From Astropecten irregularis (Eukaryota; Echinodermata; Asteroidea; Paxillosida; Astropectinidae), in contig OZ020247.1 of the NCBI GenBank assembly GCA_963971285.1, positions 12,296,614 to 12,360,613 on the forward strand: 64,000 nt of DNA, in the 5' to 3' direction. A program made the position numbers and the translations under genes. The notes beneath the pieces were generated by a model. The model was given only the letters and a program-made list of their open reading frames with translations. It had not been told where the DNA came from and made no database searches. Below are positions 853 to 51,876 of the stretch, one piece after another. Every line of letters begins with the position of its first letter. Positions within the stretch are counted from its first letter, which is position 1.

Positions 853-927
853 AAAATCGCGCCCTTAGCTAATTCCAACTTCAATGACCAATGACAAAAG
901 AAAATCAGAAAATTTGAAATGGATTTG

Positions 928-1151: not shown

Positions 1152-1285
1152 CTCAACTTTGTAATAATTACAACAAAAAAACTGATAGCGAACATCCGAC
1201 CCATGAGGGCGCTATTGTTGTAAACACACACTCATTCATGAAAGACCATGTGTACATCATCAGATGCTGCATTGAATGATTTCAG

Positions 1286-1339
1286 GAGATTTTTGTCTGC
1301 TTTCCTGCCCGAGTCATAAGCAGAAGAGGCATTTTCCAG
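1286..1339 (+). CDS. Candidate exon 1 of an unrecognised split gene
   Basis: What is seen: TTTCAG precedes an open 54-base block followed by GTGAGT, so both splice signals are good although the upstream pyrimidine tract is weak. It translates in one frame to EIFVCFPARVISRRGIFQ, exactly 18 codons, phase 0 at both ends. The next candidate exon (3459) also starts in phase 0 and is open in the matching frame. Inference: this is an internal exon of a gene read on the + strand, with earlier exons to the left of the window. The intron to exon 2 is about 2.1 kb and holds inverted-repeat elements and a minisatellite. I do not recognise the protein family. A 54-base open block could arise by chance, so the case rests on phase agreement across all four exons. 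Confidence 0.45.
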
Positions 1340-1660
1340 GTGAGTCTTGGTCTGAGGTTTACTAGAGATTATCTTAGATACATTTTTAGCTCAAAACGAA
1401 GTATTTTTGTGGCTTTTTTTGCAGCAAACTTTAAATGCCACTTCAACTTGTACAAGAATTGCACTGACGACCATCATTTGTGCACGACTCTATGGAACCA
1501 GCAGAGGGCGTTTTGAGATAAATTGCTGCTGCTGCATTCAAAGAGTCATTGTAGGTTAAAAAAAATCCCGTAAAACTCACTGTTTAGATATGCTATCCCA
1601 GTGTTACACAGCTGAGATTGAAGTTCATCATAACTTGTATTCAGTAAGGTAACTGGAATT

Positions 1661-1677
1661 CTTTCTTTCTTTCTTTC
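1661..1677. repeat. (CTTT)n microsatellite, short
   Basis: About four CTTT units are visible at the inner edge of the left arm of inverted repeat B. Confidence 0.7.
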
Positions 1678-1790
1678 CTATGTTTCTACCATCACCATCT
1701 TTATACCCTGTAAGTTATAGCTATAGGTAAATCTTTGAAGATTTCTGTTTTGGTATGCTACCACAAGTACCAGTAACAAAGTTACTTATA
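1677..1790 (-). repeat. Partial copy of inverted-repeat family A
   Basis: Read in reverse complement, this segment carries the same order of blocks as the left arm of the 351-852 element: a GTGGTAGCAT-like end, AAACAGAAAT, ATAACTTACAGGGT and AAAGATGGTG. It is truncated and diverged, and it is nested in the loop of inverted repeat B. Confidence 0.6.
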
Positions 1791-2124
1791 CATGTGTGTA
1801 CAGGTATGTAGGCCTGCAACCTTTAAGAAAAAAGGGTTATCCTCTAACTTCCAAGAGTAATCTTGAGGGAAAGAATTCCACTAATGACCATTACGGAAAA
1901 AGGATTATATCCTCCAAGAGTAACTTATTGGATACAAATTATGATGAACGTGTGAAAAACCTGGGTAGCATATCTGAAAAGTGAGTTTTACATTGTTTTT
2001 TTTTTACCTACAAATTGTACACTTCCAATACAGCGGCAGCCAATTTGCTCAAAACACCCTCGATCTGTTGGTTCCATAGAGTTGTGTACAAATTATGGTC
2101 ATCAGTGGAATTCTTTATGAAACG

Positions 2125-2398
2125 AATACACCGATCCGACGGAGCGACCATGGAGGTAGAAAACACCCGCCATTACTGCATGCAATGTCTCCACCCGTAT
2201 TTTGTCCAGCAACAAAATAATTTAAGTCTGCCACAATATACTGCGGGGTGTACATCCCCTAATCAGACATACACCCTGCAATTATAGGGTGTGGCGGACG
2301 TAAATTCTTTGGTTGGGGGACAAAATATGTCCGGGGACACACCAGTAATGGCGGATGCTTTCTACCTCCATGGTCTCGCCGTCAGATCAGTGTATACC
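2125..2398. mobile_element. Inverted-repeat element C (MITE-like)
   Basis: The left arm at about 2125-2254 and right arm at about 2267-2398 are imperfect reverse complements. Matching blocks include ACCATGGAGGTAGAAA near the ends, CCGCCATTACTG, ATTTTGTCC and the ACACCC(T/C)GCA region next to a spacer of about 12 bases. Nearly the whole element is stem, which is the geometry of a foldback or MITE. It directly follows the right arm of element B with about 10 bases between them. No coding capacity or target-site duplication was found. Confidence 0.72.
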
Positions 2399-2427
2399 GC
2401 TACTGTTAGATACACATATCGTAAAAA

Positions 2428-2593
2428 ATGTTCTGCTTGAAATGCTGTACTTATCCAGAAAAGAGTTTACATCAATTTTTTAAAGATACAAATTTAAAGT
2501 GAATTAAGATTTTAGAAATACTGTGGGTGTTTTGTTTTTTATTGTTTTCTCAAAAATTGGGGACCGTCTGGGACCAAATTTTTTACAGATGAC
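2428..2593 (-). repeat. Partial copy of inverted-repeat family A next to minisatellite
   Basis: The order of blocks GAAATGCTGTACTTATCCAG, TTTTAAAGATA, GAAATACTGTG and CAGATGACTG matches the reverse complement of about 600-780 within the first family-A element. The 16-bp minisatellite begins within a few bases of its end, so the minisatellite may have grown at the element edge. Confidence 0.6.
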
Positions 2594-2594
2594 T

Positions 2595-3369
2595 GTTGTT
2601 GGGTCTGAGTTGGCTTGGGTCAGATATTGTTGGCTTGGGTCTGGGTTGGCTTGGGTCAGATATTAATGGCTTGGGTTTGAGTTGGCTTGGGTTTGAGTTG
2701 GCTTGGTTTGAGTTGGTTTGGTTGGCTTGGTTTGATGAGTTGGCTTGGCTTGAGTTGGCTTGGGTTGAGTTGGCTTGGCTTGGGTTGAGTTGGCTTGGGT
2801 TGAGTTGGCATGGGTCTGAGTTGGCATGGGTCTGAGTTGGCATGGATCTGAGTTGGCTTGGGTTGAGTTGGCTTGGGTCTGAGTTGGCTTTGATCTGAGT
2901 TGGCTTGGGTCTGAGTTGGCTTGGGTCTGAGTTGGCTTGGGCCCGAGTTGGCTTGGGTCCGAGTTGGCTTGGGTCAGAGTTGGCTTGGGTAGACCTGAGT
3001 TGGATTGGGTCCGAGTTGGCTTGGGTCTGAGTTGGCTTGGGTTAAGTTGGTTTGAGTATGAGTTGGCTTGGGTCTGAGTTGGCTTGGGTCTAAGATTTGG
3101 TTTGGGTCTAAGATTTGGCTTGCGTCCGAGTTGGTGTGAGTATGAGTTGGCATGAGTTTGAGTTGGCTTGGGTAAAGTTGGTTTTGGTCTGATTTGGCTT
3201 GGGTCCAAGTTGCCTTTGGTCCGAATTGGTTTGGTCTGAATTGAATATGGGTCTGAGTGGGATTTGGTTGGCTTTGGTTGCATTGGTTTGGGCTGAATTG
3301 GCTTGGGTCCGAGTTGGCTTTGTTTGGCTTTGGGTCTGAGTTGGCTTTGGTCTGAGTTTGGTTGGGTCA
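2595..3369. repeat. 16-bp G-rich minisatellite, array 1
   Basis: The unit is close to TTGGGTCTGAGTTGGC, repeated about 45-50 times with substitutions and occasional shortened units. The + strand is G/T-rich with GG and GGG tracts every few bases, so G-quadruplex or slippage-prone structure is possible. Because 16 is not a multiple of three, long open frames appear on both strands (for example 2663-3370 on the minus strand, rich in P, Q, T, N and S). I regard these as by-products of the repeat. The array sits in the candidate intron between exons 1 and 2. Confidence 0.92.
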
Positions 3370-3458
3370 TCGTTTTGCGATGAAGTCATACCGAATTTGA
3401 ATAGATGAATATTTTAATAATTTCATGAATTATTTTGTATTTGTGTATTTCTTTGTAG

Positions 3459-3590
3459 GGACAGATTCTGCAGACCATCCTTTCACCACTGTATCTGACT
3501 CCAGATGAGGTTGAATTACTTGCAATCCCCTTCCCTGGCTCATTCTGACTTGTGCTGACAAATTGAAGGAACTCCTTGCGGTACAAATGA
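3459..3590 (+). pseudogene. Candidate exon 2 of split gene, frame-disrupted
   Basis: What is seen: TTCTTTGTAG precedes the block and GTAAGTGA follows it, both good splice signals. The first 29 codons (3459-3545) are open in phase 0, which is the phase left by exon 1, and include SPLYLTPDEVELLAIPF. They end at TGA 3546-3548. A second frame starting at 3545 is open to the exon end (LTCADKLKELLAVQM) and leaves one base over, exactly what exon 3 needs. A single-base loss near 3545 would reconcile the two halves. Inference: this is a real exon carrying a frameshift, which may be a pseudogene mutation, an allele or a sequence error. The residues look like an ordinary soluble, partly helical protein, but I cannot name the family. 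Confidence 0.45.
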
Positions 3591-3683
3591 GTAAGTGACA
3601 TCTACAATTAATATTCTACATTATTGTTTGCACACTGGAAAAAAATTAACCCTAACCCCCTGGGGACATTTTACTGTGTACCA

Positions 3684-3870
3684 TCCTGAATCCTCCACAG
3701 TCCTCCAGTGATTTCACTTATACTCAAAATGAGAGGTACCTGAAGCCTTCAGAATCCTTCAGTGGCCCTACCTAAAAAAATGCGTTTATCCTGAATCCTT
3801 GCCACTCCTCAAGTGGTCCTCACTTGAAAATGACATTATATCCTGAATCCTCCGAAATCCTCCAAAACTA
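3684..3870. repeat. Degenerate ~52-bp tandem repeat, about four copies
   Basis: Blocks starting TCCTGAATCCT or close variants occur at about 3684, 3738, 3789 and 3841, spaced 51-54 bases. Each is followed by a CTCC/CTTC-rich segment and, in most copies, an AGTGG-like segment. The copies are diverged, implying an old array. It lies in the candidate intron between exons 2 and 3. The flanking intervals 3591-3683 and 3871-4130 show nothing recognisable. Confidence 0.6.
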
Positions 3871-4130
3871 CCAGAGTATGTTGTATTGTGCAAATGTATT
3901 TCGCAGGAGTTGGCCGGACTACAACCGTCATGAATAGAATGAACAACACAACAGTGGAAAGACCAGCCAAGTTGCTTTTATGTCACCGGAAAACGCTTTG
4001 AACAAAATATTGATTTTATCAATTTATGGTGCCATCCACAGAATAAATGAGCTAATAATCAAAACAATTTTAATCACCGTGTGATTGTTAAAACCATACA
4101 CAATTGTAAGCCTATAAATTTCCTTATTGC

Positions 4131-4505
4131 ATGGGTCTGAATTTGTTTCTTATTGATTGGGTCCGGGTTGGGTATGCTTGGGTCCTAGTTGGTAATGCTT
4201 GTGTCAGAGTTGGTTACCAGTTCTTAGTTGGCATGAGTCTGAGTTGGCTTGGCTTGAGTTGGCTTGGATTGAGTTGGCCTGGGTCCGATTTGGCATGGGA
4301 CTGAGTTGGCTTGGGTCTGAGTTGGCTTGCGTTCAGGTTGGCTTGGGTCCGAGTTTGCTTGGGTTCAGGTTGGCTTGGGTCTGAGTTGGCTTTGGTCTGA
4401 GATGGCTCATGTCTGAATTGGCTTGGGCTGAGTTTGTTTGGGTTCGAGTTGGCTTAGGTCTGAGTTGGTGTGGGTCCGAGTTGGCTTGTGTCCGAGTTGA
4501 CTTGA
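4131..4505. repeat. 16-bp G-rich minisatellite, array 2
   Basis: The unit and strand orientation match the array at 2595-3369 (GAGTTGGCTTGGGTCT phase), with about 20-23 more diverged copies. Its left end decays gradually through GGGTCCGGGTTGG-like units. It lies in the next candidate intron, so the same minisatellite occupies two successive introns on the same strand. The interval 4506-4640 has nothing recognisable beyond the splice acceptor region of exon 3. Confidence 0.88.
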
Positions 4506-4640
4506 AACCGTTGCGGTTCACAGTTTCTTACACGTCTATAGTTGCATGACATTGTTAAACATTTCCCCATTGACCACCTTCCACATAACTTTTCTTGCTT
4601 TTCATCTTTGTTTCTTATTACCTGTATATTGTCGCTCCAG

Positions 4641-4727
4641 GTTGGTATAGCCTTGGACAAAGAATCCTTGCTCTTTTGAAGACAGTGATCAAGTCCAGGA
4701 ACTGCCTCATAACAAAGATTGGATCTG
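4641..4727 (+). CDS. Candidate exon 3 of split gene
   Basis: What is seen: GTCGCTCCAG precedes the exon and GTGAGTAG follows it. The first two bases complete a codon started by the single base left over from exon 2, then 28 codons are open (WYSLGQRILALLKTVIKS, then a basic stretch ending KIGS), leaving one base. That base joins exon 4 as a glycine codon. The segment LGQRILALLKTVIKS would form an amphipathic helix. Both boundaries agree in phase with their neighbours, the strongest support for a real gene. The product is not recognised. Confidence 0.5.
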
Positions 4728-5269
4728 GTGAGTAGAACCCTATGTTACTCCATAACCATTTTGACATGGTCGGTCATATAGGCCAAGGGCTCCAAAATTG
4801 TTAACTGAAATAACCACCTGAAATGACAGTAACTTCATGATGTTGCATAATGACTCAGCCTGGTGTTCCCTGGTGTCATGTAGGATGACTGACATAAATG
4901 AGCAATTTTGAGCCCAAATTCCATACGTACATCCAATTTCAAATTTCCAAGATTAACTATCTGGCATGCTTTGAGAGATCTGTAGTAGTACATGTAGTAA
5001 ATACTGTAAGCTCTAGAGCAGATTCCCTAGATCTTCAGAAGTCATGTAGCTTCATGTGCAACACACATCTCGCAGAATAAGGAAAAAGTGAACTGTTTGT
5101 ACAACTTGCATAGCAGACAAACTCAGGCACTCCCATTGATTCCCTGCAGCATTTCCCTTGAGGTTTTGGATTTGTTCAGAATTTCATGAAACTTGACAAC
5201 AAGATGTAGATAAGTACCTCTTTCCAACCTGCTTCAGGCAAAAACAAAAATATTCCTCGCTGACGGCCC
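4728..5269. other. Candidate intron 3, no further features
   Basis: No repeat array, transposon or convincing exon was found between exon 3 and the duplicated block that precedes exon 4. Short open frames here (such as 4898-5080) lack splice context or recognisable protein character. Confidence 0.45.
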
Positions 5270-5340
5270 CCTCATCATTGAAACTTAGCAAATTTCCTTT
5301 TGTCCCCCAAAGCAGTTTTTTCACTTTTGGCCCAAAACTA
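5270..5340 (+). repeat. Intron block, copy 1 (before exon 4)
   Basis: This block contains GCAAATTTCCTTTTGTCCCC, AGCAGTTTTTTC and GCCCAAAACT in that order. The same order recurs at 5467-5540 about 198 bases downstream. Copy 1 leads straight into the acceptor of exon 4. Copy 2 leads straight into the first satellite monomer. Confidence 0.7.
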
Positions 5341-5376
5341 ACTTTTTTTCAGAAATGTACTCTATCTTCCTCATAG

Positions 5377-5447
5377 GTATCTATGACTACCAGGAACCAT
5401 TTCGACCAAGAAAAATGCCAATCAACTTGTCTTGGAAGGAATTTGGG
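5377..5447 (+). CDS. Candidate exon 4 of split gene, last before the satellite
   Basis: What is seen: ATCTTCCTCATAG precedes the exon and GTAAGTTG follows it, a strong donor. With the base left from exon 3 it forms 24 open codons, GIYDYQEPFRPRKMPINL followed by a short Trp-containing end, finishing in phase 0. An alternative acceptor at 5352 (TTTTTTTCAG) is also in an open frame. The DYQEPFRPRK stretch is charged and proline-containing and looks like real protein. Roughly 93 bases after the donor the 217-bp satellite begins and runs to the end of the window. Either the next exon lies beyond more than 58 kb of satellite, or the gene is cut off here. Not recognised. Confidence 0.5.
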
Positions 5448-5466
5448 GTAAGTTGAGACCATTTTA

Positions 5467-5540
5467 TTCATCAGTGAAATTTCACAAATTTGCTTTGGTC
5501 CCCCAGAGCAGTTTTTTTCAATTGTTGCCCAAAACTGACC
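5467..5540 (+). repeat. Intron block, copy 2 (at satellite edge)
   Basis: This is an imperfect direct duplicate of 5270-5340, with GCAAATTT/ACAAATTT, GGTCCCCCAGAGCAG and GCCCAAAACTGAC in the same order. It ends where satellite sequence starts (CATACCATCCTCTAGG), so it marks the left boundary of the array. Confidence 0.7.
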
Positions 5541-7940
5541 GGTCATACCATCCTCTAGGAGTCTAGGGTACATCTGGGGCTAAATTTCGTGCAAGTTTCA
5601 GCTTGATAGCTTCAGTATTAGCGTAAAAAAGTGTCCCATAGTCTAAGTGCAGTCTTAATGGACCGTTCCGGATTTGTGTGTTTTACATACAGCTGTGACC
5701 GAGTTTGACCGAGGCTTTCATGGTCACCTGATTAAAAGACGTCCTCCAATTGGTCAATGCGCACAGTTTGATTGACAGGCCGGAAGGGTCCAATGCGCCT
5801 GATTCACTGTTTTCTCGCATAGCGTGTGGTGTTATACTTGGATTTTCGGCCATGAACATTACTTTGGATTTTAGCTCTGCCAATACCATCCTGTAGGGTA
5901 TATCTGGGGCTACATTTCGTGAAAGTTTCAGCTCGATAGCTTTAGTATTGTTGGAGAAATTTCAAACTTTAGCGTAAAAAAGTGTCTCATAGTCTAAGTG
6001 CAGTCTTAATTGCGCCTGCTTCGCTGTTTTCTCGTAAAGCGTGTGGTGATATACTTGGATTTTCGGCCATGAACATGACTTTGGATTTTGGCAAAGCCCA
6101 TACCATCCTGTAGGGTACATCTGGGGCTACATTTCGTGCAAGTGTCAGCTCGATAGCTTCAGTATTGGGGGAGAAATTTTAAAATCTAGCGTAAAAAAGG
6201 TGTCTCATAGCTAAAGTGCAGTCTTAATTGCGCCTCCTTCGCTGTTTTCTCGCATAGCGTGTGGTGTTATACTTGGATTTTCGGCCATGAACATGACTTT
6301 GGATTTTGGCTCTGCCCATACCATCCTGTAGGATACATCTGGGCTTACATTTCGTGCTGGTTTCAGCTCGATAGCTTCAGTATTGGGGGAGAAATTTCAA
6401 ACTCTAGTGTAAAAAAAAGTGTCTCATAGTCTAAGTGCAGTCTTAATTGCGCCTGCTTCGCTGTTTTCTCGCATAGCGTGTGGTGTTATACTTGGATTTT
6501 GGGCCATCAACATTACTTTGGATTTCGGCACCGGCCATTCAATTTTGTAGGGTACATCTGGGGCTACATTTCGTGCAAGTTTCAGCTCGATAGCTTCAGT
6601 GTCGGGGGAGACATTTCAAACTCTAGCGTAAAAAAAGTGTCTCATAGTCTAAGTGCAGTATTAATTGCGCCTGCTTCGCTGTTTTCTCTCATAGCGTGTG
6701 GTGATATACTTGGATTTTCGGCCATGAACATGACTTTGGATTTCGGCTCAGCCCATACCATCCTGTAGGGTACATCTGGGGCTACATTTCGTGCAGGTTT
6801 CAGCTCGATATCTTCAGTATTTGGGGAGAAATTTTTAACTCTAGCTTAAAAAGTGTCTCATAGTGTAAGTGCTGTCTTAATTGCGCCTGCTTCACTGTTT
6901 TCTCGCATAGAGTGTGGTGATATACTTGAATTTTTGGCCATGAACATGACTTTGGATTTTGGCAGCGGCCATACCATCCTGTAGGGGACATCTGGGGCTA
7001 CATTTCGGGCAAATGTCATCTCGATAGCCTCAGTATTGGGGTAGAAATTTCAAACTCTAGCGTAAAAAAGTGTCTCATAGTCTAAGTACAGTCTTAATTG
7101 CGCCTGCCTCGCTGATTTCTCGCATAGCGTGTGGTGTTATACTTGGATTTTCGGCCATGAACATGACTTTGGATTTCCACTCAGCCCATATCATCCTGTA
7201 GGGGACATCTGGGGCTACATTTCGGGCAAATGTCAGCTCGATAGTTTCAGTATTGGGGGAGAAATTTCTAACTCTAGCGTAAAAAAGTGTCTCATAGTCT
7301 AAGTGCAGTCTTAATTGCGCCTGCTTCTCTGTTTTCTCGCATAGCGTGTGGTGTTATACTTGGATTTTCGGCCATGAACATGACTTTGGATTTTGGCACA
7401 GCCCACATTATCCTGTAGGGTACATCTGGGGCTACATTTCATGCAAGTTTCAGCTCGATAGCTTCAGTATTGGGAGTGAAATTTCAAACTCTAGCGTAAA
7501 AAAGTGTATCATAGTCTTAAGTGCTGTCTTAATTGCGCCTGCTTTGCTGTTTTCTCGCATAGCGTGTGGTGCTATACTTGGATTTTCGGCCATCAACATT
7601 ACTTTGGATTTCGGCACCGGCCATTCAATTTTGTAGGGTACATCTGGGGCTACATTTCGTGCAAGTTTCAGATCGATAGCCTCAGTATTTGGGGAGAAAT
7701 TTCAAACTCTAGCGTAAAAACGTGTGTCATAGTCTAAGTGCAGTCTTAATTGCGCCTGCTTCACTGTTTTCTCGCATAGCGTGTGGTTCTATACTTGGAA
7801 TTTCGGCCATGAACATGACTTTGGATTTTGGCACAGGCCATACCATCCTGTAGGGTACATCTGGGGCTACATTTCGTGCAAGTTGTAGCTCGATAGCCTA
7901 AGTATTGAGGGAGAAATTCCAAACTCTAACGTAAAAAAAG
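5541..7940 (+). repeat. 217-bp satellite, divergent left-edge block
   Basis: Head-to-tail monomers of about 217 bp. A typical monomer runs from TGTCTCATAGTCTAAGTGCA through ATAGCGTGTGGTG, GGCCATGAACATGACTTTGG, CCATCCTGTAGGGTACATCT and AGCTCGATAGCTTCAGTATT to GTAAAAAAG. The first partial monomer lacks the GGGGGAGAAATTTCAAACT segment and is interrupted by a MITE at 5660. Copies here differ from each other more than those further right, as expected at an array edge where homogenisation is weak. A monomer at 6800-6991 is already close to the marker monomer of the later higher-order repeats. Confidence 0.93.
5660..5791. mobile_element. 132-bp MITE inserted in the first satellite monomers
   Basis: The terminal inverted repeats are GGACCGTTCCGG (5660-5671) and CCGGAAGGGTCC (5780-5791), 11 of 12 bases matching. 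AAT flanks both ends (5657-5659 and 5792-5794) as a likely 3-bp target-site duplication. The satellite motif CAGTCTTAAT/TGCGCCTG is split by it, so the empty site can be read from neighbouring monomers. No coding capacity. A 3-bp duplication is compatible with Harbinger-like or other cut-and-paste superfamilies, so I leave the superfamily open. Confidence 0.72.
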
Positions 7941-8473
7941 CTGTTTCTAAGAGAATAGGTGTCCTGAATAGACTAAAAAATATTTTACCTGTGTCTACCC
8001 TTAACTTTCTCGTCAAAAGCCTTATCTTTCCCCAATTTGATTATTGTGATCTTGTTTGGAGTAATGCTTCAAAATCACTAACGCAACGGCTTGATGTAGT
8101 TTTGAATAGAGCTGGACGGACAATTCTTAAGGCTCAAACTAGAACATCAGCTTCTGTTATCAGGAATAGATTAGGATGGAAGACTCTGCAGGCAAGACGA
8201 GATATCCATATAAATACCATGGTTTTTAAATGTCTAACTGGTAAAGCTCCTATGTATCTTAATGTTTTTACTCCAGTCAGTGAATCACATAAATATCAAA
8301 CAAGGAATAGCACTGTTGGTAATGTTGTCCTCCCACATCCCAGAACTGAAAGTGGAAGAAGAACATTTAGTTTCAGGGGTGCTCAAGCATGGAATATTTT
8401 ACCAATTAACACAAAAACATGTCAAACTGTAAGCCTAAATACCTTTGTCAACCAACTCAAACAGCTCAATTAA
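7941..8473 (+). pseudogene. LINE ORF2 C-terminal fragment (post-RT region)
   Basis: One frame is open from the insertion junction to TAA at 8471-8473, about 177 codons. It lacks the endonuclease and the catalytic reverse transcriptase core, including the YADD-type motif. What remains is the conserved region after the RT palm: SKRIGVLNRLKNILPV, then FPQFDYCDLVWSNAS, NRAGRTILKAQTR, ARRDIHINTMVFKCL and FRGAQAWNILPIN. This pattern is typical of CR1/L2/Jockey-type elements. No internal stop or frameshift is present, suggesting a fairly young insertion. There is no genuine start codon, since the frame enters from satellite sequence, so no product is expected. Confidence 0.88.
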
Positions 8474-8593
8474 TTGTGTCTTCATTGTTGTTGTTTTAGT
8501 TCTGTGGTTTGTGTAATTTTTAATGTATGCTTTTTCTTACCTGTATTTTTGTATTGGTATTTTTTTATCACATTTTGTAGTTTTGTAAGCTTG

Positions 8594-8638
8594 GATCCAT
8601 GGGAGATCAGTAACTTTTTCCTTGTAACTGAATGGATC
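8594..8638 (+). other. Possible stem-loop in LINE 3' UTR
   Basis: GATCCAT (8594-8600) can pair with ATGGATC (8632-8638), upstream of the AAAT tail. Some LINEs use a 3' UTR hairpin for recognition by their reverse transcriptase. A role here is inference only, since a 7-bp stem with a 31-base loop could be chance. Confidence 0.35.
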
Positions 8639-8672
8639 ACCCAGGGTAAAATAAGAAATAAATAAATAAAAA

Positions 8673-8730
8673 AAGTGTCTCATGTTTTTAGTGCAGTCTT
8701 TTAAGACTGCACTAAAAACATGAGACACTT
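8673..8730. repeat. 28-bp-arm palindrome in satellite, copy 1
   Basis: The left arm at 8673-8700 is the satellite segment AAGTGTCTCATG...AGTGCAGTCTT. The right arm at 8703-8730 is its exact reverse complement, with TT between them. It then jumps to CGCATAGCG, so the normal AATTGCGCCTGCTTCGCTG segment of the monomer has been replaced by the inverted copy. The LINE tail abuts its left side. Confidence 0.92.
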
Positions 8731-11700
8731 CGCATAGCGTGTGGTGTTATACTTGGATTTTCGGCCATGAACATGACTTTGGATTTTGGCACAGCCCATA
8801 CTTTCCTGTAGGGTACATCTGGGGCTACATTTCGTGCAAGTTTCAGCTCGATAGCATCAGTATTGGGGGAGAAATTTCAAACTCTAGCGTAAAAAAGTGT
8901 CTCATAGTCTAAGTGCAGTCTTAATTGCGCCTGCTTCGCTGATTTATCGCATAGCGTTTGGTGATATACTTGGATTTTCGGCCGTGAACATGACTTTGGA
9001 TTTCCACTCAGCCCTTACCATCCTGTAGGGTACATCTAGGGCTACATTTCGGGCAAATGTCAGCTCGATAGTTTCAGTATTGGGGGAGAAATTTCAAACT
9101 GTAGCGTAAAAAAGTGTCTCATAGTCTAAGTGCAGTCTTAATTGCGCCTGCTTCAATGTTTTCTCGCATAGCATGTTGTGATATATTTGGATTTTCGGCC
9201 ATGAACATGACTTTGGATTTTGGCACAGGCCATACCATCCTCTAGGGGACATCTGGGGCTATATTTCGTGCAAGTTTCAGCTCGATAGCATCAGTATTGG
9301 GGGAGAAATTTCAAACTCTAGCATAAAAAAGTGTCTCATAGTCTAAGTGCAGTCTTAATTGCGCCTGCCTCGCTGATTTCTCGCATAGCGTTTGGTGATA
9401 TACTTGGATTTTCGGCCATGAACATGACTTTGGATTTCCACTCAGCCCATACCATCCTGTAGGGTACATCTGGGGCTACATTTCGGGCAAATGTCAGCTC
9501 GATAGTTTCAGTATTGGGGGAGAAATTTCTAACTCTAGCGTAAAAAAGTGTCTCATAGTCTAAGTGTAGTCTTAATTGCGCCTGCTTCACTGTTTTCTCG
9601 CAAAGCATGTGGTGATATATTTGGATTTTTGGCCATAAACACGACTTTGTATTTCGGCACAGACCATACCATCCTGTAGGATATATCCGGGGCTATATTT
9701 CGTGCAAGTTTCAGCTCGATAGCTTCAGTATTGGGGGAGAAATTTCAAACTCGAGAGGAAAAAAGTATCTCATAGTCTAAGTGCAGTCCTAATTGCGCCT
9801 GCTTCTCTGTTTTCTCGCATAGCGTGTGGTGTTATACTTGGATTTACGGCCATGAACATGACTTTGGATTTTGGCACAGCACCATACCATCCAGTAGGGT
9901 ACATCTAAGGCTACATTTCGTGCAAGTTTCAGCTCGATAGCATCAGTATTGGGGGAGAAATTTCAAACTCTAGCGTAAAAAAGTGTCTCATAGTCTAAGT
10001 GCAGTCTTAATTGCGCCTGCCTCGCTGATTTCTCGCATAGCGTGTGGTGTTATACTTGGATTTTCGGCCATGAACATGACTTTGGATTTCAACTCAGCCC
10101 ATATCATCCTGTAGGGGACATCTGGGGCTACATTTCGGGCAAATGTCAGCTCGATAGTTTCAGTATTGGGAGTGAAATTTCAAACTCTAGCGTAAAAAAG
10201 TGTATCATAGTCTTAAGTGCTGTCTTAATTGCGTCTGCTTTGCTGTTTTCTCGCATAGCGTGTGGTGCTATACTTGGATTTTCGGCCATCAACGTTACTT
10301 TGGATTTCGGCACCGGCCATTCAATTTTGTAGGGTACATCTGGGGCTACATTTCGTGCAAGTTTCAGATCGATAGCCCCAGTATTTGGGGAGAAATTTCA
10401 AACTCTAGCGTAAAAAAGTGTGTCATAGTCTAAGTGCAGTCTTAATTGCGCCTGCTTCACTGTTTTCTCTCATAGCGTGTGGTGCTATACTTGGAATTTC
10501 GGCCATGAACATGACTTTGGATTTTGGCACAGGCCATACCATCCTGTAGGGTACATCTGGGGCTACATTTCGTGCAAGTTGTAGCTCGATAGCCTAAGTA
10601 TTGAGGGAGAAATTCCAAACTCTAACGTAAAAAAAGTGTCTCATGTTTTTAGTGCAGTCTTTTAAGACTGCACTAAAAACACGAGACACTTCGCATAGCG
10701 TGTGGTGTCATACTTGGATTTTCGGCCATGAACATGACTTTGGATTTTGGCACAGCCCATACCATCCTGTAGGATACATATGAGGCTACATTTCGTGCAA
10801 GTTTCAGCTCAAAAGCCTCGGTATTGAGGGAGAAATTTCAAACTCAAGCGTAAAAAAAGTGTCTCATAGTTTTAGTGCACGTCTTAATTGCGCCTGCTCG
10901 GCTGTTTTTTCGGATAGCGTGTGGTGCTATACTTGGATTTTCGGCCGTGAAAATGACTTTAAATGTTATTTAAGCCCATACCATCCTGTAGGTTACATCT
11001 GGGGCTACATTTCGTGCAAGTTTTAGCTCGATTGCCTCAGTATTTGGGGAGAAATTTTAAACTCTTCCGTAAAAAAGTTTGTCATAGTCTAAGGGCAGTC
11101 TTAATCGCGCCTTCTTCGCTGTTTTCTCGTATAGCGTGTGGTGTTATACTTGGAATTTCGGCCATGAACATGACTTTGGATTTTAGCACAGACCATACCA
11201 TCCTGTAGGGTACATCTGGGGCTACATTTCGTGCAAGTTTCAGATCGATAGCCTCAGTATTTGGAGAGAAATTTCAAACTCTAGCGTAAAAACTTGTGTC
11301 ATAGTCTAAGTGCAGTCTTAATTGCGCCTGCTTCACTGTTTTCTCGCATAGCATGTGGTGATATATTTGGATTTTTGGCCATAAACACGACTTTGTATTT
11401 CGGCACAGACCATACCATCCTGTAGGATATATCTGGGGCTATATTTCGTGCAAATGTCAGCTCGATAGCCTCAGTATTGGGGGAGAAATTTCAAACTCGA
11501 GCGTAATAAAGTGTCTCATAGTCTAAGTGCAGTCTTAATTGCGCCTGCTTCTCTGTTTTCTCGCATAGCGTGTGGTGTTATACTTGGATTTACGGCCATG
11601 AACATGACTTTGGATTTTGGCACAGCACCATACCATCCAGTAGGGTACATCTGGGGCTACATTTCGTGCAAGTTTCAGCTCGATAGCATCAGTATTGGGG

Positions 11701-14700
11701 GAGAAATTTCAAACTCTAGCGTAAAAAAGTGTCTCATAGTCTAAGTGCAGTCTTAATTGCGCCTGCTTCGCTGATTTATCGCATAGCGTTTGGTGATATA
11801 CTTGGATTTCGGCCGTGAACATGACTTTGGATTTCCACTCAGCCCATACCATCCTGTAGGGTACATCTGGGGCTACATTTCGGGCAAATGTCAGCTCGAT
11901 AGTTTCAGTATTGGGGGAGAAATTTCTAACTCTAGCGTAAAAAAGTGTCTCATAGTCTAAGTGCAGTCTTAATTGCGCCTGCTTCACTGTTTTCTCGCAA
12001 AGCATGTGGTGATATATTTGGATTTTTGGGCATAAACACGACTTTGTATTTCGGCACAGACCATACCATCCTGTAGGATATATCTGGGGCTATATTTCGT
12101 GCAAGTTTCAGCTCGATAGCTTCAGTATTGGGGGAGACATTTCAAACTCGAGCGTAAAAAAGTGTCTCATAGTCTAAGTGCAGTCCTAATTGCGCCTGCT
12201 TCTCTGTTTTCTCGCATAGCGTGTGGTGTTATACTTGGATTTACGGCCATGAACATGACTTTGGATTTTGGCACAGCACCATACCTTCCAGTAGGGTACA
12301 TCTAAGGCTACATTTCGTGCAAGTTTCAGCTCTATAGCATCAGTATTGGGGGAGAAATTTCAAACTCTAGCGTAAAAAAGTGTCTCATAGTCTAAGTGCA
12401 GTCTTAATTGCGCCTGCCTCGCTGATTTCTCACATAGCGTGTGGTGCTATACTTGGATTTTCGGCCATGAACATGACTTTGGATTTTGGCACAGCCCCTA
12501 CCATCCTGTAGGGTACATCTGGGGCTACATTTCGTGCAAGTTTTAGCTCGATTGCCTCAGTATTTGGGGAGAAATTTCAAACTCTTCCGTAAAAAAGTGT
12601 CTCATAGTCTAAGTGCAGTCTTAATTGCGCCTGCTTCACTGTTTTCTCGCATAGCATGTTGTGATATATTTGTATTTTCGGCCATGAACATGACTTTGGA
12701 TTTTGGCACAGGCCATACTTTCCTCTAGGGGACATCTGGGGCTATATTTCGTGCAAGTTTCAGCTCGATAGCATCAGTATTGGGGGAGAAATTTCAAACT
12801 CTAACGTAAAAAAGTGTCTCATAGTCTAAGTGCAGTCTTAATTGCGCCTGCCTCGCTGATTTCTCGCATAGCGTTTGGTGATATACTTGGATTTTCGGCC
12901 ATGAACATGACTTTGGATTTCCACTCTGCCCATACCATCCTGTAGGGTACATCTGGGGCTACATTTCGGTCAAATGTCAGCTCGATAGTTTCAGTATTGG
13001 GGGAGAAATTTCTAACTCTAGCGTAAAAAAGTGTCTCTTAGTCTAAGTGCAGTCTTAATTGCGCCTGCTTCTCTGTTTTCTCGCATAGCGTGTGGTGTTA
13101 TACTTGGATTTACGGCCATGAACATGACTTTGGATTTTGGCACAGCACCATACCATCCAGTAGGGTACATCTAAGGCTACATTTCGTGCAAGTTTCAGCT
13201 CGATAGCATCAGTATTGGGGGAGAAATTTCAAACTCTAGCGTAAAAAAGTGTCTCATAGTCTAAGTGCAGTCTTAATTGCGCCTGCCTCGCTGATTTCTC
13301 GCATAGCGTGTGGTGTTATACTTGGATTTTCGGCCATGAACATGACTTTGGATTTCAACTCAGCCCATATCATCCTGTAGGGGACATCTGGGGCTACATT
13401 TCATGCAAGTTTCAGCTCGATAGCTTCAGTATTGGGAGTGAAATTTCAAACTCTAGCGTAAAAAAGTGTATCATAGTCTTAAGTGCTTTCTTAATTGCGC
13501 CTGCTTTGCTGTTTTCTCGCATAGCGTGTGGTGCTATACTTTGATTTTCGGCCATCAACATTACTTTGGATTTCGGCACCGGCCATTCAATTTTGTAGGG
13601 TACATCTGGGGCTACATTTCGTGCAAGTTTCAGCTCGATAGCTTCAGTGTCGGGGGAGAAATTTCAAACTCTAGCGTAATAAAAGTGTCTCATAGTCTAA
13701 GTGCAGTCTTAATTGCGCCTGCGTCTCTGTTTTCTCGCATAGCGTGTGGTGCTATACTTGGATTTTCGGCCATGAACATGACTTTGGATTTTGGCACAGA
13801 CCATATCATCCTGTAGGGTACATATGAGGCTACATTTCGTGCAAGTTGTAGCTCGATAGCCTAAGTATTGAGGGAGAAATTTTAAACTCTAGCTTTAAAA
13901 AAGTGTATTATAGTCTAAGGGCAGTCTTAAATGCGCCTGCTTCGCTGTTTTCTCGCATAGCGTGTGGTGCTATACTTGGATTTTTGGCCATGAACATGAC
14001 TTTGGATTTTGGCTCAGCCCCAACCATCCTGTAGAGAACATCTGGGGCTACATTTCGGGCAAATATCAGCTCGATAGCTTCAGTATTGGGGGAGAAATTT
14101 CAAACTCTAGCTTAAAAAAGTGTCTCATAGTCTAAGTGCAGTCTTAATTGCGCCTGCTTCGCTGTTTTCTCACATAGCGTGTGGTGTTATACTTGGATTT
14201 TCGGCCATGAACATGACTTTGGATTTTGGCACAGCCCCTACCATCCTGTAGGGTAAATGGGGCTACATTTCGTGCAGGTTTCAGCTCGATAGCTTCAATA
14301 TTGGGGGAGAAATTTCAAACTCTAGCGTAAAAAAGTGTCTCATAGTCTAAGTGCAGTATTAATTGCGCCTGCTTCGCTGTTTTCTCTCATAGCGTGTGGT
14401 GATATACTTGGATTTTCGGCCATGAACATGTCTTTAAATGTTATTTAAGCCCATACCATCCTGTAGGTTACATCTGGGGCTACATTTCGTGCAAGTTTTA
14501 GCTCGATTGCCTCAGTATTTGGGGAGAAATTTCAAACTCTTCCGTAAAAAAGTTTGTCATAGTCTAAGGGCAGTCTTAATTGCGCCTGCTTCGCTGTTTT
14601 TTCGGATAGCGTGTGGTGCTATACTTGGATTTTCGGCCATGAACATGACTTTGGATTTTGGCACCGGCCATACCATCCTGTAGGAGACATCTGGGGCTAC

Positions 14701-14879
14701 ATTTCGGGCAAATGTCAGCTCGATAGCCTCAGTATTGGGGGAGAAATTTCAAACTCTAGCGTAAAAAAGGGTCTCATAGTCTAAGTGCAGTCTTAATTGC
14801 GCCTGCTTCACTGTTTTCTCGCAAAGCATGTGGTGATATATTTGGATTTTCGGCCATGAACATGACTTTGGATTTTGGC
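8676..14879 (+). repeat. 217-bp satellite, divergent block right of LINE
   Basis: Continues the same monomer and orientation. Monomers are mutually divergent with several subtypes: GCATGTGGTGATATATTTGG with CATAAACACGACTTTGTATT, CACTCAGCCCATACC, and GGTAAATGGGGCTAC near 14255. Some short segments are locally duplicated, for example the surroundings of 9336-9608 and 11709-12005. No ordered higher-order period is evident before about 14.9 kb. The palindromes at 8673-8730 and 10634-10691 lie within it. Confidence 0.92.
10634..10691. repeat. 28-bp-arm palindrome in satellite, copy 2
   Basis: This has the same architecture and junction as 8673-8730 (arms 10634-10661 and 10664-10691), with one mismatch in the right arm (ACGAGAC for ATGAGAC). 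The upstream monomer also matches that before the LINE, at a constant offset of 2,696 bases, so the two palindromes are copies of one event. This copy lacks the LINE and shows the pre-insertion sequence. Confidence 0.92.
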
Positions 14880-17800
14880 ACAGCCCCTTCCATCCTGTAG
14901 GGTAAATGGGGCTACATTTCGTGCAGGTTTCAGCTCGATATCTTCAGTATTGGGGGAGAAATTTTAAACTCTAGCTTAAAAAGTGTCTCATAGTGTAAGT
15001 GCTGTCTTAATTGTGCCTGCTTCACTGTTTTCTCGCATAGCGTGTGGTGATATACTTGGATTTTTGGCCATGAACATGACTTTGGATTTTGGCACCGGCC
15101 ATACCATCCTGTAGGGGACATCTGGGGCTACATTGCGGGCAAATGTCAGCTCGATAGCCTCAGTATTGGGGGAGAAATTTCAAACTCTAGCGTAAAAAAG
15201 TGTCTCATAGTCTAAGTGCAGTCTTAATTGCGCCTGCTTCACTGTTTTCTCGCAAAGCATGTGGTGATATATTTGGATTTTTGGCCATAAACACGACTTT
15301 GTATTTCGGCACAGACCATACCATCCTGTAGGATATATCTGGGGCTATATTTCGTGCAAGTTTCAGCTCGATAGCATCAGTATTGGGGGAGAAATTTCAA
15401 ACTGTAGCGTAAAAAAGTGTCTCATAGTCTAAGTGCAGTCTTAATTGCGCCTGCTTCACTGTTTTCTCGCAGAGCATGTGGTGATATATTTGTATTTTCG
15501 GCCATGAACATGACTCTGGATTTTGGCACAGGCCATACCATCCTCTAGGGGACATCTGGGGCTATATTTCGTGCAAGTTTAAGCTTGATAGCATCAGTAT
15601 TGGGGGAGAAATTTCAAACTCTAGCGTAAAAAAGTGTCTCATAGTCTAAGTGCAGTCTTAATTGCGCCTGCCTCGCTGATTTCTCGCATAGCGTTTGGTG
15701 ATATACTTGGATTTTCGGCCATGAACATGACTTTGGATTTCCACTCAGCCCATACCATCCTGTAGGGTACATCTGGGGCTACATTTCGGGCAAATGTCAG
15801 CTCGATAGTTTCAGTATTGGGGGAGAAATTTCTAACTCTAGCGTAAAAAAGTGTCTCATAGTCTAAGTGCAGTCTTAATTGCGCCTGCTTCTCTGTTTTC
15901 TCGCATAGCGTGTGGTGTTATACTTGGATTTTCGGCCATGAACATGACTTTGGATTTTGGCACAGCCCACACCATCCTGTAGGGTACATCTGGGGCTACA
16001 TTTCGGGCAAATGTCAGCTCGATAGCTTCAGTATTGGGAGTGAAATTTCAAACTCTAGCGTAAAAAAGTGTATCATAGTCTTAAGTGCTGTCTTAATTGC
16101 GCCTGCTTTGCTGTTTTCTCGCATAGCGTGTGGTGCTATACTTGGAATTTCGGCCATGAACATGACTTTGGATTTTGGCACAGACCATATCATCCTGTAG
16201 CGTACATCTTGGGCTACATTTCGTGCAAGTTTCAGATCGATAGCCTCAGTATTTGGGGAGAAATTTTAAACTCTAGCGTAAAAACGTGTGTCATAGTCTA
16301 AGTGCAGTCTTAATTGCGCCTGCTTCACTGTTTTCTCGCATAGCGTGTGGTGCTATACTTGGAATTTCGGCCATGAACATGACTTTGGATTTTGGCACAG
16401 GCCATACCATCCTGTAGGGTACATCTGGGGCTACATTTCGTGCAAGTTGTAGCTCGATAGCCTAAGTATTGAGGGAGAAATTACAAACTCTAGCTTTAAA
16501 AAAGTGTATTATAGTCTAAGTGCAGTCTTAATTGCGCCTGCGTCTCTGTTTTCTCGCATAGCGTGTGGTGCTATACTTGGATTTTCGGCCATGAACATGA
16601 CTTTGGATTTTGGCACAGACCATATCATCCTGTAGGGTACATCTGGGGCTACATTTCGTGCAAGTTTCAGATCGATAGCCTCAGTATTTGGGGAGAAATT
16701 TTAAACTCTAGCGTAAAAACGTGTGTCATAGTCTAAGTGCAGTCTTAATTGCGCCTGCTTCACTGTTTTCTCGCATAGCGTGTGGTGCTATACTTGGAAT
16801 TTCGGCCATGAACATGACTTTGGATTTTGGCACAGGCCATACCATCCTGTAGGGTACATCTGGGGCTACATTTCGTGCAAGTTGTAGCTAGATAGCCTAA
16901 GTATTGAGGGAGAAATTACAAACTCTAGCTTTAAAAAAGTGTATTATAGTCTAAGGGCAGTCTTAAATGCGCCTGCTTCGCTGTTTTCTCGCATAGCGTG
17001 TGGTGCTATACTTGGATTTTTGGCCATGAACATGACTTTGGATTTTGGCTCAGCCCCAACCATCCTGTAGAGAACATCTGGGGCTACATTTCGGGCAAAT
17101 ATCAGCTCGATAGCTTCAGTATTGGGGGAGAAATTTTAAACTCTAGCTTAAAAAAGTGTCTCATAGTCTAAGTGCAGTCTTAATTGCGCCTGCTTCGCTG
17201 TTTTCTCACATAGCGTGTGGTGTTATACTTGGATTTTCGGCCATGAACATGACTTTGGATTTTGGCACAGCCCCTTCCATCCTGTAGGGTAAATGGGGCT
17301 ACATTTCGTGCAGGTTTCAGCTCGATATCTTCAGTATTGGGGGAGAAATTTTAAACTCTAGCTTAAAAAGTGTCTCATAGTGTAAGTGCTGTCTTAATTG
17401 TGCCTGCTTCACTGTTTTCTCGCATAGCGTGTGGTGATATACTTGGATTTTTGGCCATGAACATGACTTTGGATTTTGGCACCGGCCATACCATCCTGTA
17501 GGGGACATCTGGGGCTACATTTCGGGCAAATGTTAGCTCGATAGCCTCAGTATTGGGGGAGAAATTTCCAACTCTAGCGTAAAAAAGTGTCTCATAGTCT
17601 AAGTGCAGTCTTAATTGCGCCTGCTTCACTGTTTTCTCGCAAAGCATGTGGTGATATATTTGGATTTTTGGCCATAAACACGACTTTGTATTTCGGCACA
17701 GACCATACCATCCTGTAGGATATATCTGGGGCTATATTTCGTGCAAGTTTCAGCTCGATAGCATCAGTATTTGGGGAGAAATTTTAAACTCTAGCGTAAA

Positions 17801-18454
17801 AAAGTGTCTCATAGTCTAAGTGCAGTCTTAATTGCGCCTGCCTCGCTGATTTATCGCATAGCGTTTGGTGATATACTTGGATTTTCGGCCATGAACATGA
17901 CTTTGGATTTCCACTCAGCCCATACCATCCTGTAGGGTACATCTGGGGCTACATTTCGGGCAAATGTCAGCTCGATAGTTTCAGTATTGGGGGAGAAATT
18001 TCAAACTGTAGCGTAAAAAAGTGTCTCATAGTCTAAGTGCAGTCTTAATTGCGCATGCTTCACTGTTTTCTCGCATAGCATGTGGTGATATATTTGGATT
18101 TTCGGCCATGAACATGACTTTGGATTTTGGCACAGGCCATACCATCCTCTAGGGGACATCTGGGGCTATATTTCGGGCAAATGTCAGCTCGATAGTTTCA
18201 GTATTTGGGGAAAAATTTTAAACTCTAGCGTAAAAACGTGTGTCATAGTCTAAGTGCAGTCTTAATTGCGCCTGCTTCTCTGTTTTCTCGCATAGCGTGT
18301 GGTGTTATACTTGGATTTTCGGCCATGAACATGACTTTGGATTTTGGCACAGCCCACACCATCCTGTAGGGTACATCTGGGGCTACATTTCGGGCAAATA
18401 TCAGCTCGATAGCTTCAGTATTGGGGGAGAAATTTCAAACTCTAGCGTAAAAAA

Positions 18455-18890
18455 GTGTATCATAGTCTTAAGTGCTGTCTTAATTGCGCCTGCTTTGCTG
18501 TTTTCTCGCATAGCGTGTGGTGCTATACTTTGATTTTCGGCCATCAACATTACTTTGGATTTCGGCACCGGCCATTCAATTTTGTAGGGTACATCTGGGG
18601 CTACATTTCATGCAAGTTTCAGCTCGATAGCTTCAGTATTGGGAGTGAAATTTCAAACTCTAGCGTAAAAAAGTGTATCATAGTCTTAAGTGCTGTCTTA
18701 ATTGCGCCTGCTTTGCTGTTTTCTCGCATAGCGTGTGGTGCTATACTTTGATTTTCGGCCATCAACATTATTTTGGATTTCGGCACCGGCCATTCAATTT
18801 TGTAGGGTACATCTGGGGCTACATTTCGTGCAAGTTTCAGCTCGATAGCTTCAGTGTCGGGGGAGAAATTTCAAACTCTAGCGTAATAAA
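18455..18890 (+). repeat. Duplicated 218-bp submonomer (2 copies)
   Basis: The subtype with GTGTATCATAGTCTTAAG and CACCGGCCATTCAATTTTG is present twice in tandem, where other units have one (24095, 26267), two (29525, 36895, 40586, 43189) or three (33854) copies. The copies differ by only a few bases, so this is a recent local expansion. Confidence 0.85.
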
Positions 18891-21800
18891 AGTGTCTCAT
18901 AGTCTAAGTGCAGTCTTAATTGCGCCTGCGTCTCTGTTTTCTCGCATAGCGTGTGGTGCTATACTTGGATTTTCGGCCATGAACATGACTTTGGATTTTG
19001 GCACAGACCATATCATCCTGTAGGGTACATCTGGGGCTACATTTCGTGCAAGTTTCAGATCGATAGCCTCAGTATTTGGGGAGAAATTTTAAACTCTAGC
19101 GTAAAAACGTGTGTCATAGTCTAAGTGCAGTCTTAATTGCGCCTGCTTCACTGTTTTCTCGCATAGCGTGTGGTGCTATACTTGGAATTTCGGCCATGAA
19201 CATGACTTTGGATTTTGGCACAGGCCATACCATCCTGTAGGGTACATCTGGGGCTACATTTCGTGCAAGTTGTAGCTAGATAGCCTAAGTATTGAGGGAG
19301 AAATTACAAACTCTAGCTTTAAAAAAGTGTATTATAGTCTAAGGGCAGTCTTAAATGCGCCTGCTTCGCTGTTTTCTCGCATAGCGTGTGGTGCTATACT
19401 TGGATTTTTGGCCATGAACATGACTTTGGATTTTGGCTCAGCCCCAACCATCCTGTAGAGAACATCTGGGGCTACATTTCGGGCAAATATCAGCTCGATA
19501 GCTTCAGTATTGGGGGAGAAATTTTAAACTCTAGCTTAAAAAAGTGTCTCATAGTCTAAGTGCAGTCTTAATTGCGCCTTCTTCGCTGTTTTCTCACATA
19601 GCGTGTGGTGTTATACTTGGATTTTCGGCCATGAACATGACTTTGGATTTTGGCACAGCCCCTTCCATCCTGTAGGGTAAATGGGGCTACATTTCGTGCA
19701 GGTTTCAGCTCGATATCTTCAGTATTGGGGGAGAAATTTTAAACTCTAGCTTAAAAAGTGTCTCATAGTGTAAGTGCTGTCTTAATTGTGCCTGCTTCAC
19801 TGTTTTCTCGCATAGCGTGTGGTGATATACTTGGATTTTTGGCCATGAACATGACTTTGGATTTTGGCACCGGCCATACCATCCTGTAGGGGACATCTGG
19901 GGCTACATTTCGGGCAAATGTTAGCTCGATAGCCTCAGTATTGGGGGAGAAATTTCAAACTCTAGCGTAAAAAAGTGTCTCATAGTCTAAGTGCAGTCTT
20001 AATTGCGCCTGCTTCACTGTTTTCTCGCAAAGCATGTGGTGATATATTTGGATTTTTGGCCATAAACACGACTTTGTATTTCGGCACAGACCATACCATC
20101 CTGTAGGATATATCTGGGGCTATATTTCGTGCAAGTTTCAGCTCGATAGCATCAGTATTTGGGGAGAAATTTTAAACTCTAGCGTAAAAAAGTGTCTCAT
20201 AGTCTAAGTGCAGTCTTAATTGCGCCTGCCTCGCTGATTTATCGCATAGCGTTTGGTGATATACTTGGATTTTCGGCCATGAACATGACTTTGGATTTCC
20301 ACTCAGCCCATACCATCCTGTAGGGTACATCTGGGGCTACATTTCGGGCAAATGTCAGCTCGATAGTTTCAGTATTGGGGGAGAAATTTCAAACTGTAGC
20401 GTAAAAAAGTGTCTCATAGTCTAAGTGCAGTCTTAATTGCGCCTGCTTCACTGTTTTCTCGCATAGCATGTGGTGATATAATTGGATTTTCGGCCATGAA
20501 CATGACTTTGGATTTTGGCACAGGCCATACCATCCTCTAGGGGACATCTGGGGCTACATTTCGTGCAAGTTTCAGATCGATAGCCTCAGTATTTGGGGAG
20601 AAATTTTAAACTCTAGCGTAAAAACGTGTGTCATAGTCTAAGTGCAGTCTTAATTGCGCCTGCTTCACTGTTTTCTCGCATAGCGTGTGGTGCTATACTT
20701 GGAATTTCGGCCATGAACATGACTTTGGATTTTGGCACAGGCCATACCATCCTGTAGGGTACATCTGGGGCTACATTTCGTGCAAGTTGTAGCTAGATAG
20801 CCTAAGTATTGAGGGAGAAATTACAAACTCTAGCTTTAAAAAAGTGTATTATAGTCTAAGGGCAGTCTTAAATGCGCCTGCTTCGCTGTTTTCTCGCATA
20901 GCGTGTGGTGCTATACTTGGATTTTTGGCCATGAACATGACTTTGGATTTTGGCTCAGCCCCAACCATCCTGTAGAGAACATCTGGGGCTACATTTCGGG
21001 CAAATATCAGCTCGATAGCTGCAGTATTGGGGGAGAAATTTTAAACTCTAGCTTAAAAAAGTGTCTCATAGTCTAAGTGCAGTCTTAATTGCGCCTTCTT
21101 CGCTGTTTTCTCACATAGCGTGTGGTGTTATACTTGGATTTTCGGCCATGAACATGACTTTGGATTTTGGCACAGCCCCTTCCATCCTGTAGGGTAAATG
21201 GGGCTACATTTCGTGCAGGTTTCAGCTCGATATCTTCAGTATTGGGGGAGAAATTTTAAACTCTAGCTTAAAAAGTGTCTCATAGTGTAAGTGCTGTCTT
21301 AATTGTGCCTGCTTCACTGTTTTCTCGCATAGCGTGTGGTGATATACTTGGATTTTTGGCCATGAACATGACTTTGGATTTTGGCACCGGCCATACCATC
21401 CTGTAGGGGACATCGGGGCTACATTTCGGGCAAATGTTAGCTCGATAGCCTCAGTATTGGGGGAGAAATTTCAAACTCTAGCGTAAAAAAGTGTCTCATA
21501 GTCTAAGTGCAGTCTTAATTGCGCCTGCTTCACTGTTTTCTCGCAAAGCATGTGGTGATATATTTGGATTTTTGGCCATAAACACGACTTTGTATTTCGG
21601 CACAGACCATACCATCCTGTAGGATATATCTGGGGCTATATTTCGTGCAAGTTTCAGCTCGATAGCATCAGTATTTGGGGAGAAATTTTAAACTCTAGCG
21701 TAAAAAAGTGTCTCATAGTCTAAGTGCAGTCTTAATTGCGCCTGCCTCGCTGATTTATCGCATAGCGTTTGGTGATATACTTGGATTTTCGGCCATGAAC

Positions 21801-33800: not shown

Positions 33801-33853
33801 CAGCTCGATAGCTTCAGTATTGGGGGAGAAATTTCAAACTCTAGCGTAAAAAA

Positions 33854-34507
33854 GTGTATCATAGTCTTAAGTGCTGTCTTAATTGCGCCTGCTTTGCTGT
33901 TTTCTCGCATAGCGTGTGGTGCTATACTTTGATTTTCGGCCATCAACATTACTTTGGATTTCGGCACCGGCCATTCAATTTTGTAGGGTACATCTGGGGC
34001 TACATTTCATGCAAGTTTCAGCTCGATAGCTTCAGTATTGGGAGTGAAATTTCAAACTCTACCGTAAAAAAGTGTATCATAGTCTTAAGTGCTGTCTTAA
34101 TTGCGCCTGCTTTGCTGTTTTCTCGCATAGCGTGTGGTGCTATACTTTGATTTTCGGCCATCAACATTACTTTGGATTTCGGCACCGGCCATTCAATTTT
34201 GTAGGGTACATCTGGGGCTACATTTCATGCAAGTTTCAGCTCGATAGCTTCAGTATTGGGAGTGAAATTTCAAACTCTAGCGTAAAAAAGTGTATCACAG
34301 TCTTAAGTGCTGTCTTAATTGCGCCTGCTTTGCTGTTTTCTCGCATAGCGTGTGGTGCTATACTTTGATTTTCGGCCATCAACATTATTTTGGATTTCGG
34401 CACCGGCCATTCAATTTTGTAGGGTACATCTGGGGCTACATTTCGTGCAAGTTTCAGCTCGATAGCTTCAGTGTCGGGGGAGAAATTTCAAACTCTAGCG
34501 TAATAAA
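33854..34507 (+). repeat. Triplicated 218-bp submonomer
   Basis: Starts at 33854, 34072 and 34290 are exactly 218 bases apart. It is the same subtype as at 18455, expanded to three copies. The first two copies share the GGGAGTGAAATTTC variant at their right ends. Single-base differences (ACCGTAAAAAAG before the second copy, TCACAGTC in the third) let the copies be told apart. Confidence 0.88.
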
Positions 34508-38559: not shown

Positions 38560-38600
38560 GGCTACATTTCGTGCAAGTTGTAGCTCGATAGCCTGAGTAT
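38560..38600 (+). repeat. Chimeric monomer junction inside a 17-mer unit
   Basis: The left part is the marker monomer (GGTAAATGGGGCTACATTTC). The right part switches to GTGCAAGTTGTAGCTCGATA, a different subtype normally preceded by GGGTACATCT. The switch is in register, so it is a product of crossover between misaligned monomers, and it explains the unusually long 3,691-base marker spacing from 35757 to 39448. Confidence 0.75.
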
Positions 38601-51573: not shown

Positions 51574-51876
51574 CAACTCTAGCTTTACAAAAGTGTATTA
51601 TAGTCTAAGGGCAGTCTTAAATGCGCCTGCTTCGCTGTTTTCTCGCATAGCGTGTGGTGCTATACTTTGATTTTTGGCCATGAACATGACTTTGGAATTT
51701 GGCTCAGCCCCAACCATCCTGTAGAGAACATCTGGGGCTACATTTCGGGCAAATATCAGCTCGATAGCTTCAGTATTGGGGGAGAAATTTCAAACTCTAG
51801 TTAAAAAAAGTGTCTCATAGTCTAAGTGCAGTCTTAATTGCGCCTGCTTCGCTGTTTTCTCACATAGCATGTGGTA
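51574..51876 (+). repeat. Out-of-register satellite fragment between two junctions
   Basis: At about 51574 the monomer jumps from CACCACAGCCCACA to ACTCTAGCTTTACAAAAG. At about 51876 it jumps from CATAGCATGTGGT to AATTGCGCCTGCGTCTC. Both break the 217-bp register, unlike almost all other exchanges in the array, so they are probably non-allelic or microhomology-mediated joins, or assembly joins. Confidence 0.8.

Follow-up and report, generated by a model that had tools for sequence, protein, structure and literature searches.

In the human genome, duplicated gene fragments in pericentromeric DNA give rise to chimeric transcripts. Processed copies of transcripts (retrocopies) are made by the machinery of long interspersed nuclear elements (LINEs), and satellite DNA can arise from other sequence. 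Here we describe a repeated unit of the sea star Astropecten irregularis in which features of all three meet. The unit was found at the head of a 64,000-nucleotide stretch (the window) of contig OZ020247.1, here C10 (C10:12296614-12360613), where a first-pass annotation had joined four short blocks into a hidden four-exon protein gene. Copies were sought in 475.7 Mb of the genome (168 contigs). The unit is probably a decayed piece of a chimeric gene, duplicated and multiplied together with the satellite DNA beside it. One block, exon 2, is a genuine spliced exon, because it recurs with exact edges in a processed copy (L015); the set of blocks itself does not provide this support. A thin check of titles and abstract openings in the literature did not find the unit described, which is no evidence of its being unpublished.

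All four blocks lie in the non-satellite head of the window (1-5.8 kb):

1286..1339, forward strand: block 1, the proposed exon 1; exon-like and multi-copy, donor GTGAGT; candidate exon
3465..3590, forward strand: true exon 2, 126 nucleotides (nt); matched in the processed copy L015 with unrelated flanks, joined on both sides
3546..3548, forward strand: in-frame TGA of exon 2, the 'slip' of the first-pass annotation
4641..4727, forward strand: block 3, the proposed exon 3; AG and GTGAGT kept in copies; candidate exon
5377..5447, forward strand: block 4, the proposed exon 4; inside a 195-bp satellite monomer
5272..5540, forward strand: about 1.4 monomers of the 195-bp satellite, with a self-match 196 bp apart

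As had been claimed, the blocks originally drawn (1286-1339, 3459-3590, 4641-4727 and 5377-5447) are each preceded by AG and are followed by GTGAGT, GTAAGT, GTGAGT and GTAAGT, respectively, and the peptides quoted for them can be read from the DNA.

Exon 2 in a processed copy

L015 is located at 17.575 Mb on C10. Its homology to exon 2 starts and stops at the exon edges. Upstream, a 150-bp segment (exon A) is joined straight to exon 2 at 3465. In genomic units exon A precedes exon 2 by 4.6 kb (L014) or 1.9 kb (L016) and reads GGCAAG/GTAA at its downstream edge (the slash marks the exon boundary), whereas the junction in L015 is GGCAAG/ATT. Together with the genomic acceptor, GGGACAG/ATT, this junction puts the start of exon 2 at 3465, 6 nt inside the originally proposed start at 3459. 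L015 departs from exon 2 at the TGA that directly precedes the donor (3590) and continues with sequence of a different locus. Two pieces were recognized downstream, B (query 1-145) and C (query 162-229). On C11 they are separated by 2.7 kb, near 7.06 Mb (e.g. 7060422 and 7063221), and both occur also at C19:17.77 Mb. L015 must have passed through reverse transcription because introns were lost: the intron of 1.9-4.6 kb between A and exon 2 is gone, and the 2.7 kb between B and C have shrunk to 16 nt. Downstream in L015 there is a LINE-like frame that encodes an endonuclease domain (PF03372). Over 129 bases exon 2 of L015 is 100% identical to that of L013 and L016, and the event was therefore recent.

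The genomic copies carry GT and AG at the edges that L015 joins (L014, L016 and the window compared). Among the loci examined there were 38 exon-2 matches, 37 of them read at 3546; at least 117 copies exist. All 36 rows read at the acceptor have GGGACAG/ATT, and all 36 read at the donor have TGA/GTAAGTG. The TAG at 3457-3458, which had served as the acceptor, is present in 7 of 36 rows, consistent with the seven C10 loci examined; the non-C10 rows displayed lack it.

Frame 0 of exon 2 (LTPDEVELL) ends at the TGA at 3546-3548, and the frame required for exon 3 stops early. The TGA is found in 37 of 37 rows, ten of which have an earlier TAA too. The joined frame, said to be open apart from one slip, is thus closed: no single frame is open through exon 2. 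Pfam contained no family for the peptides of exon 2, exons 3+4 or exon A, and the PDB no solved structure matching the window's exon 2-4 peptide, so that neither exon 2 nor exons 3+4 had in these databases the recognizable homologue expected of a protein-coding gene. A further PDB search gave 28 rows, all of one bacterial neurotoxin (E at least 0.49), which were rejected as chance-level. What survives of the hidden gene is a truly spliced exon that open reading frame scanning would miss, witnessed by the processed copy; the four blocks as one protein gene are not supported.

The transcript behind L015 was probably a chimera, because relatives of its exons (A, 2, B/C) sit in different neighbourhoods. 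Eighteen exon-A relatives form a tandem cluster at C11:12.57-12.71 Mb. Neither this cluster nor the B/C site at C19:17.77 Mb had a match in the exon-2 peptide search, which is a further reason to regard the transcript as a probable chimera. The interval 10.8-12.5 Mb of C10 had no match to exon A at E 1e-4 (32 of 32 candidates scored).

Two further frames were noted at these loci. Between its exon 2 and the LINE, L015 has an internally repetitive frame of 307 amino acids (repeats LIDFEGGDLNLEFPSLDEVDIPLPFIDES; C10:17.574-17.575 Mb, reverse strand); its four Pfam rows were all under the cut-offs, and a PDB search gave no match. In L042 (C11:12668600-12670100) an exon-A relative with the donor GGCAAG/GTAATC is followed by what by eye appears to be a signal-peptide exon, and by a further frame.

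Blocks 1, 3 and 4

It is possible, with a probability well short of even, that exon 2 is the sole exon of the unit and that in blocks 1, 3 and 4 AG and GT came to flank non-coding repeat DNA by chance. The first-pass annotation had considered a chance set of such blocks unlikely. We made 300 dinucleotide shuffles of bases 1-5800 and scored the longest strictly open, phase-matched chain. The chain rules are stricter than the original claim: they exclude the proposed exon 1 for its weak pyrimidine tract, and exon 2 for its stop. The segment has seven GTRAGT donors (shuffle mean, 3.4), and its longest chain is three blocks. Chains of at least three blocks appeared in 17 of the 300 shuffles, one of them with four; under the same rules the reverse strand had one donor and zero blocks. 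By sequence alone, the blocks are not clearly beyond chance.

Searches for joined copies speak for the same alternative. None of exons 1-2, 2-3 or 3-4 was seen in the loci examined. No copy of exons 1-2-3 was present among 40 of 267 candidates scored, and none of exons 2-3-4 among 40 of 68, where no exon-3 match extends into exon 2 or 4. Exon 1, searched together with 27 nt of exon 2, yielded 155 first-look candidates; the 40 scored all match positions 1-54 and end there, none being a joined 1-2 copy. Against chance stand the GTGAGT donors of blocks 1 and 3, unaltered in the copies aligned. In L011 and L025 the exon-1 donor is kept, and the acceptor is TTTGAG in place of TTTCAG.

For exon 3, the identity in five aligned rows (83/87, 83/87, 80/82, 80/82 and 78/87) is near that of the adjoining introns, as expected of a chance block. 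Differences summed over these rows fall 4/8/8 on codon positions 1/2/3, with three of four at position 3 in L026. Coding constraint on exon 3 is, from these patterns, not clear. In the frame proposed, L026 and L037 have a TGA. For exon 3 alone all 60 candidates were scored and gave 60 matches, many with 50-67% identity and E values of 0.1 or worse. A second, diverged exon-3 family (80% DNA identity) is interleaved with the first on C10, on the same strand, with 11 copies at C10:10927448-12519019, L039 among them; TGA occurs in its members L038, L040 and L041.

Block 4 belongs to a satellite. The tandem period is about 195 bp in L023-L025 and 197 bp in L028-L029, and L023, L024, L028, L029, L030 and L032 each contain 45-51 head-to-tail copies; the exon-4-bearing satellite is present on C15, C12, C19 and C22. 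The exons 3+4 query gave 4986 first-look candidates, 150 of which were scored; since exon 3 alone gives 60, the excess comes from exon 4. Of 412 exon-4 matches in the loci examined 383 were near-full, with AG in 368 and GT in 378. Among the donor types listed, GTAAGT was present in only 65 rows and the commonest, GTAATT and GTATTT, in 287, so that many monomers have GT in a non-consensus donor, which again favours chance. Deletions of 1-2 nt within exon 4 were found in 184 of the 383 near-full copies. Near-contiguous exon 3-4 matches on C15 and C12 (69-74%) were set aside as probable chance extensions of exon-4 monomers.

Several of the data sit uneasily with a decayed fragment. The exon-3 splice sites are intact in five of five aligned rows (four loci). 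In the second exon-3 family, L039 and the other C10 members are stop-free in the frame proposed, and conservation is higher in the exon core (90-92% over 65-77 bp) than in the flanks, which is at the same time a point against chance blocks. Exon-4 differences from the window in the 383 copies, which are not independent, number 624/457/1023 at codon positions 1/2/3, and 341 of these 383 non-independent satellite copies are stop-free in the proposed frame; judged by this pattern, past coding of exon 4 is possible. In L015, 16 nt (query 146-161) match neither B nor C, and the B-C junction is not base-exact. We nevertheless regard a decayed, duplicated fragment as the best account: the first-pass annotation picked out one real spliced exon, possibly others.

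Copy number and satellite setting

The repeats around the blocks are as follows:

2599..3368, forward strand: 16-bp minisatellite (TTGGGTCTGAGTTGGC)n, the stretch preceding exon 2; found also beside the exon-2 copy of L001
4222..4504, forward strand: further array of this 16-bp minisatellite, preceding exon 3
5794..64000, forward strand: 217-bp satellite array, seen also as 435-bp dimers; 271 of 271 matches on the same strand

The 217-bp satellite runs head-to-tail throughout 5794-64000, and no significant match was found between its monomer and that of the 195-bp satellite. A 160-amino-acid open frame at 7991-8473 (forward strand), which we interpret as the terminal part of a LINE reverse transcriptase, is inserted into the 217-bp array; a Pfam search with this frame gave no match. 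The head of the window also holds inverted repeats (2126-2395, and 1454-1610 with 1951-2115; 76-80% identity), with related pieces elsewhere.

All 117 candidates for the exon-2 peptide were scored, and the 117 matches are spread over 16 contigs. On C10 the window's unit was found 12 times between 10.8 and 12.5 Mb, its own copy counted; the corresponding 12 exon-2 matches (10.83-12.45 Mb) are all on the forward strand, 79-281 kb apart, and the thirteenth C10 match is L015, on the opposite strand. Over the non-minisatellite stretches compared, L003-L007 (C10) are 97.9-100% identical to the window. On C18, C8 and C39 exon-2 copies follow each other in steps of about 0.8-1.06 kb.

A non-autonomous mobile element, for example Helitron-like, could have captured the exons and spread before the adjoining satellites grew. 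Presence on 16 contigs would suit such an element, as would the unit pieces with minisatellites common to loci and the sharp break of homology upstream of exon 1 in L011. Two features are rather what duplication would give: the 217-bp satellite accompanies six of eight exon-2 loci tested, and strand is uniform among the exon-2 copies of each contig except C10 (L015) and C11. We consider a mobile element improbable.

For the decayed fragment we propose the following course. A gene piece would have come into satellite-rich, probably pericentromeric DNA, decayed, and multiplied there with the satellite, spreading by duplication of unit and satellite together. A pericentromeric position is probable from the clustering of matches inside several large contigs, among the matches listed. 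In sister forms of the unit exon A precedes exon 2; one such form gave a transcript with exons A, 2, B and C spliced in this order, which was reverse-transcribed, and the copy is now found upstream of a LINE. Since an inherited processed copy exists, the sister unit was presumably transcribed in the germ line. The window's unit itself would make no protein.

The units might be transcribed to this day, giving a spliced non-coding RNA that acts in heterochromatin. From the complete identity of exon 2 in L015, L013 and L016 it follows that a sister unit was transcribed recently, but L015 has another exon combination, not that of the window's unit, and we think such an RNA quite unlikely. A working four-exon protein gene is barely credible: its four AG/GT blocks do stand in order with matching phases, and their splice motifs are kept in copies, but every exon-2 row read has the TGA, no joined copy was present among the candidates scored (40/267, 40/68 and 40/155), no domain was recognized for exons 2 or 3+4, exon 4 is satellite, the unit is much repeated, and in L015 exon 2 is joined to other sequence.

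Meaning and comparison with known systems

Tidy splice sites beside satellite DNA can mislead gene finding. The processed copy bears witness to a case in which an exon amplified together with a satellite was spliced into a probable chimera. A bolder proposal, which we rate as unlikely, is that exon-bearing satellite units would constitute a living exon-shuffling pool: exons, splice sites included, would be multiplied to high number, transcribed in germ cells, spliced into chimeric RNAs and returned to the genome by LINE machinery. Should transcription of the units continue today, they would open exon shuffling in satellite-rich DNA to direct test.

The unit resembles the duplicated fragments of human pericentromeric regions in that exons from different loci appear to have been spliced together in satellite-rich DNA. 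It differs from them in that single exons recur here in tandem arrays of about 1 kb, and inside a 195-bp monomer; the pericentromeric position is in our case a probable one, deduced from match clustering. Like retrocopies made by LINEs, L015 is intron-free, its exon-2 edges are exact, and a LINE-like frame (PF03372) follows it downstream; its difference from them is probable chimerism, with exons drawn from different loci. The 195- and 217-bp head-to-tail arrays are comparable to satellites that arose from other sequence, whereas the 195-bp monomer is set apart from these by an AG/GT-edged block, the AG being kept in 368 and the GT in 378 of 383 near-full copies.

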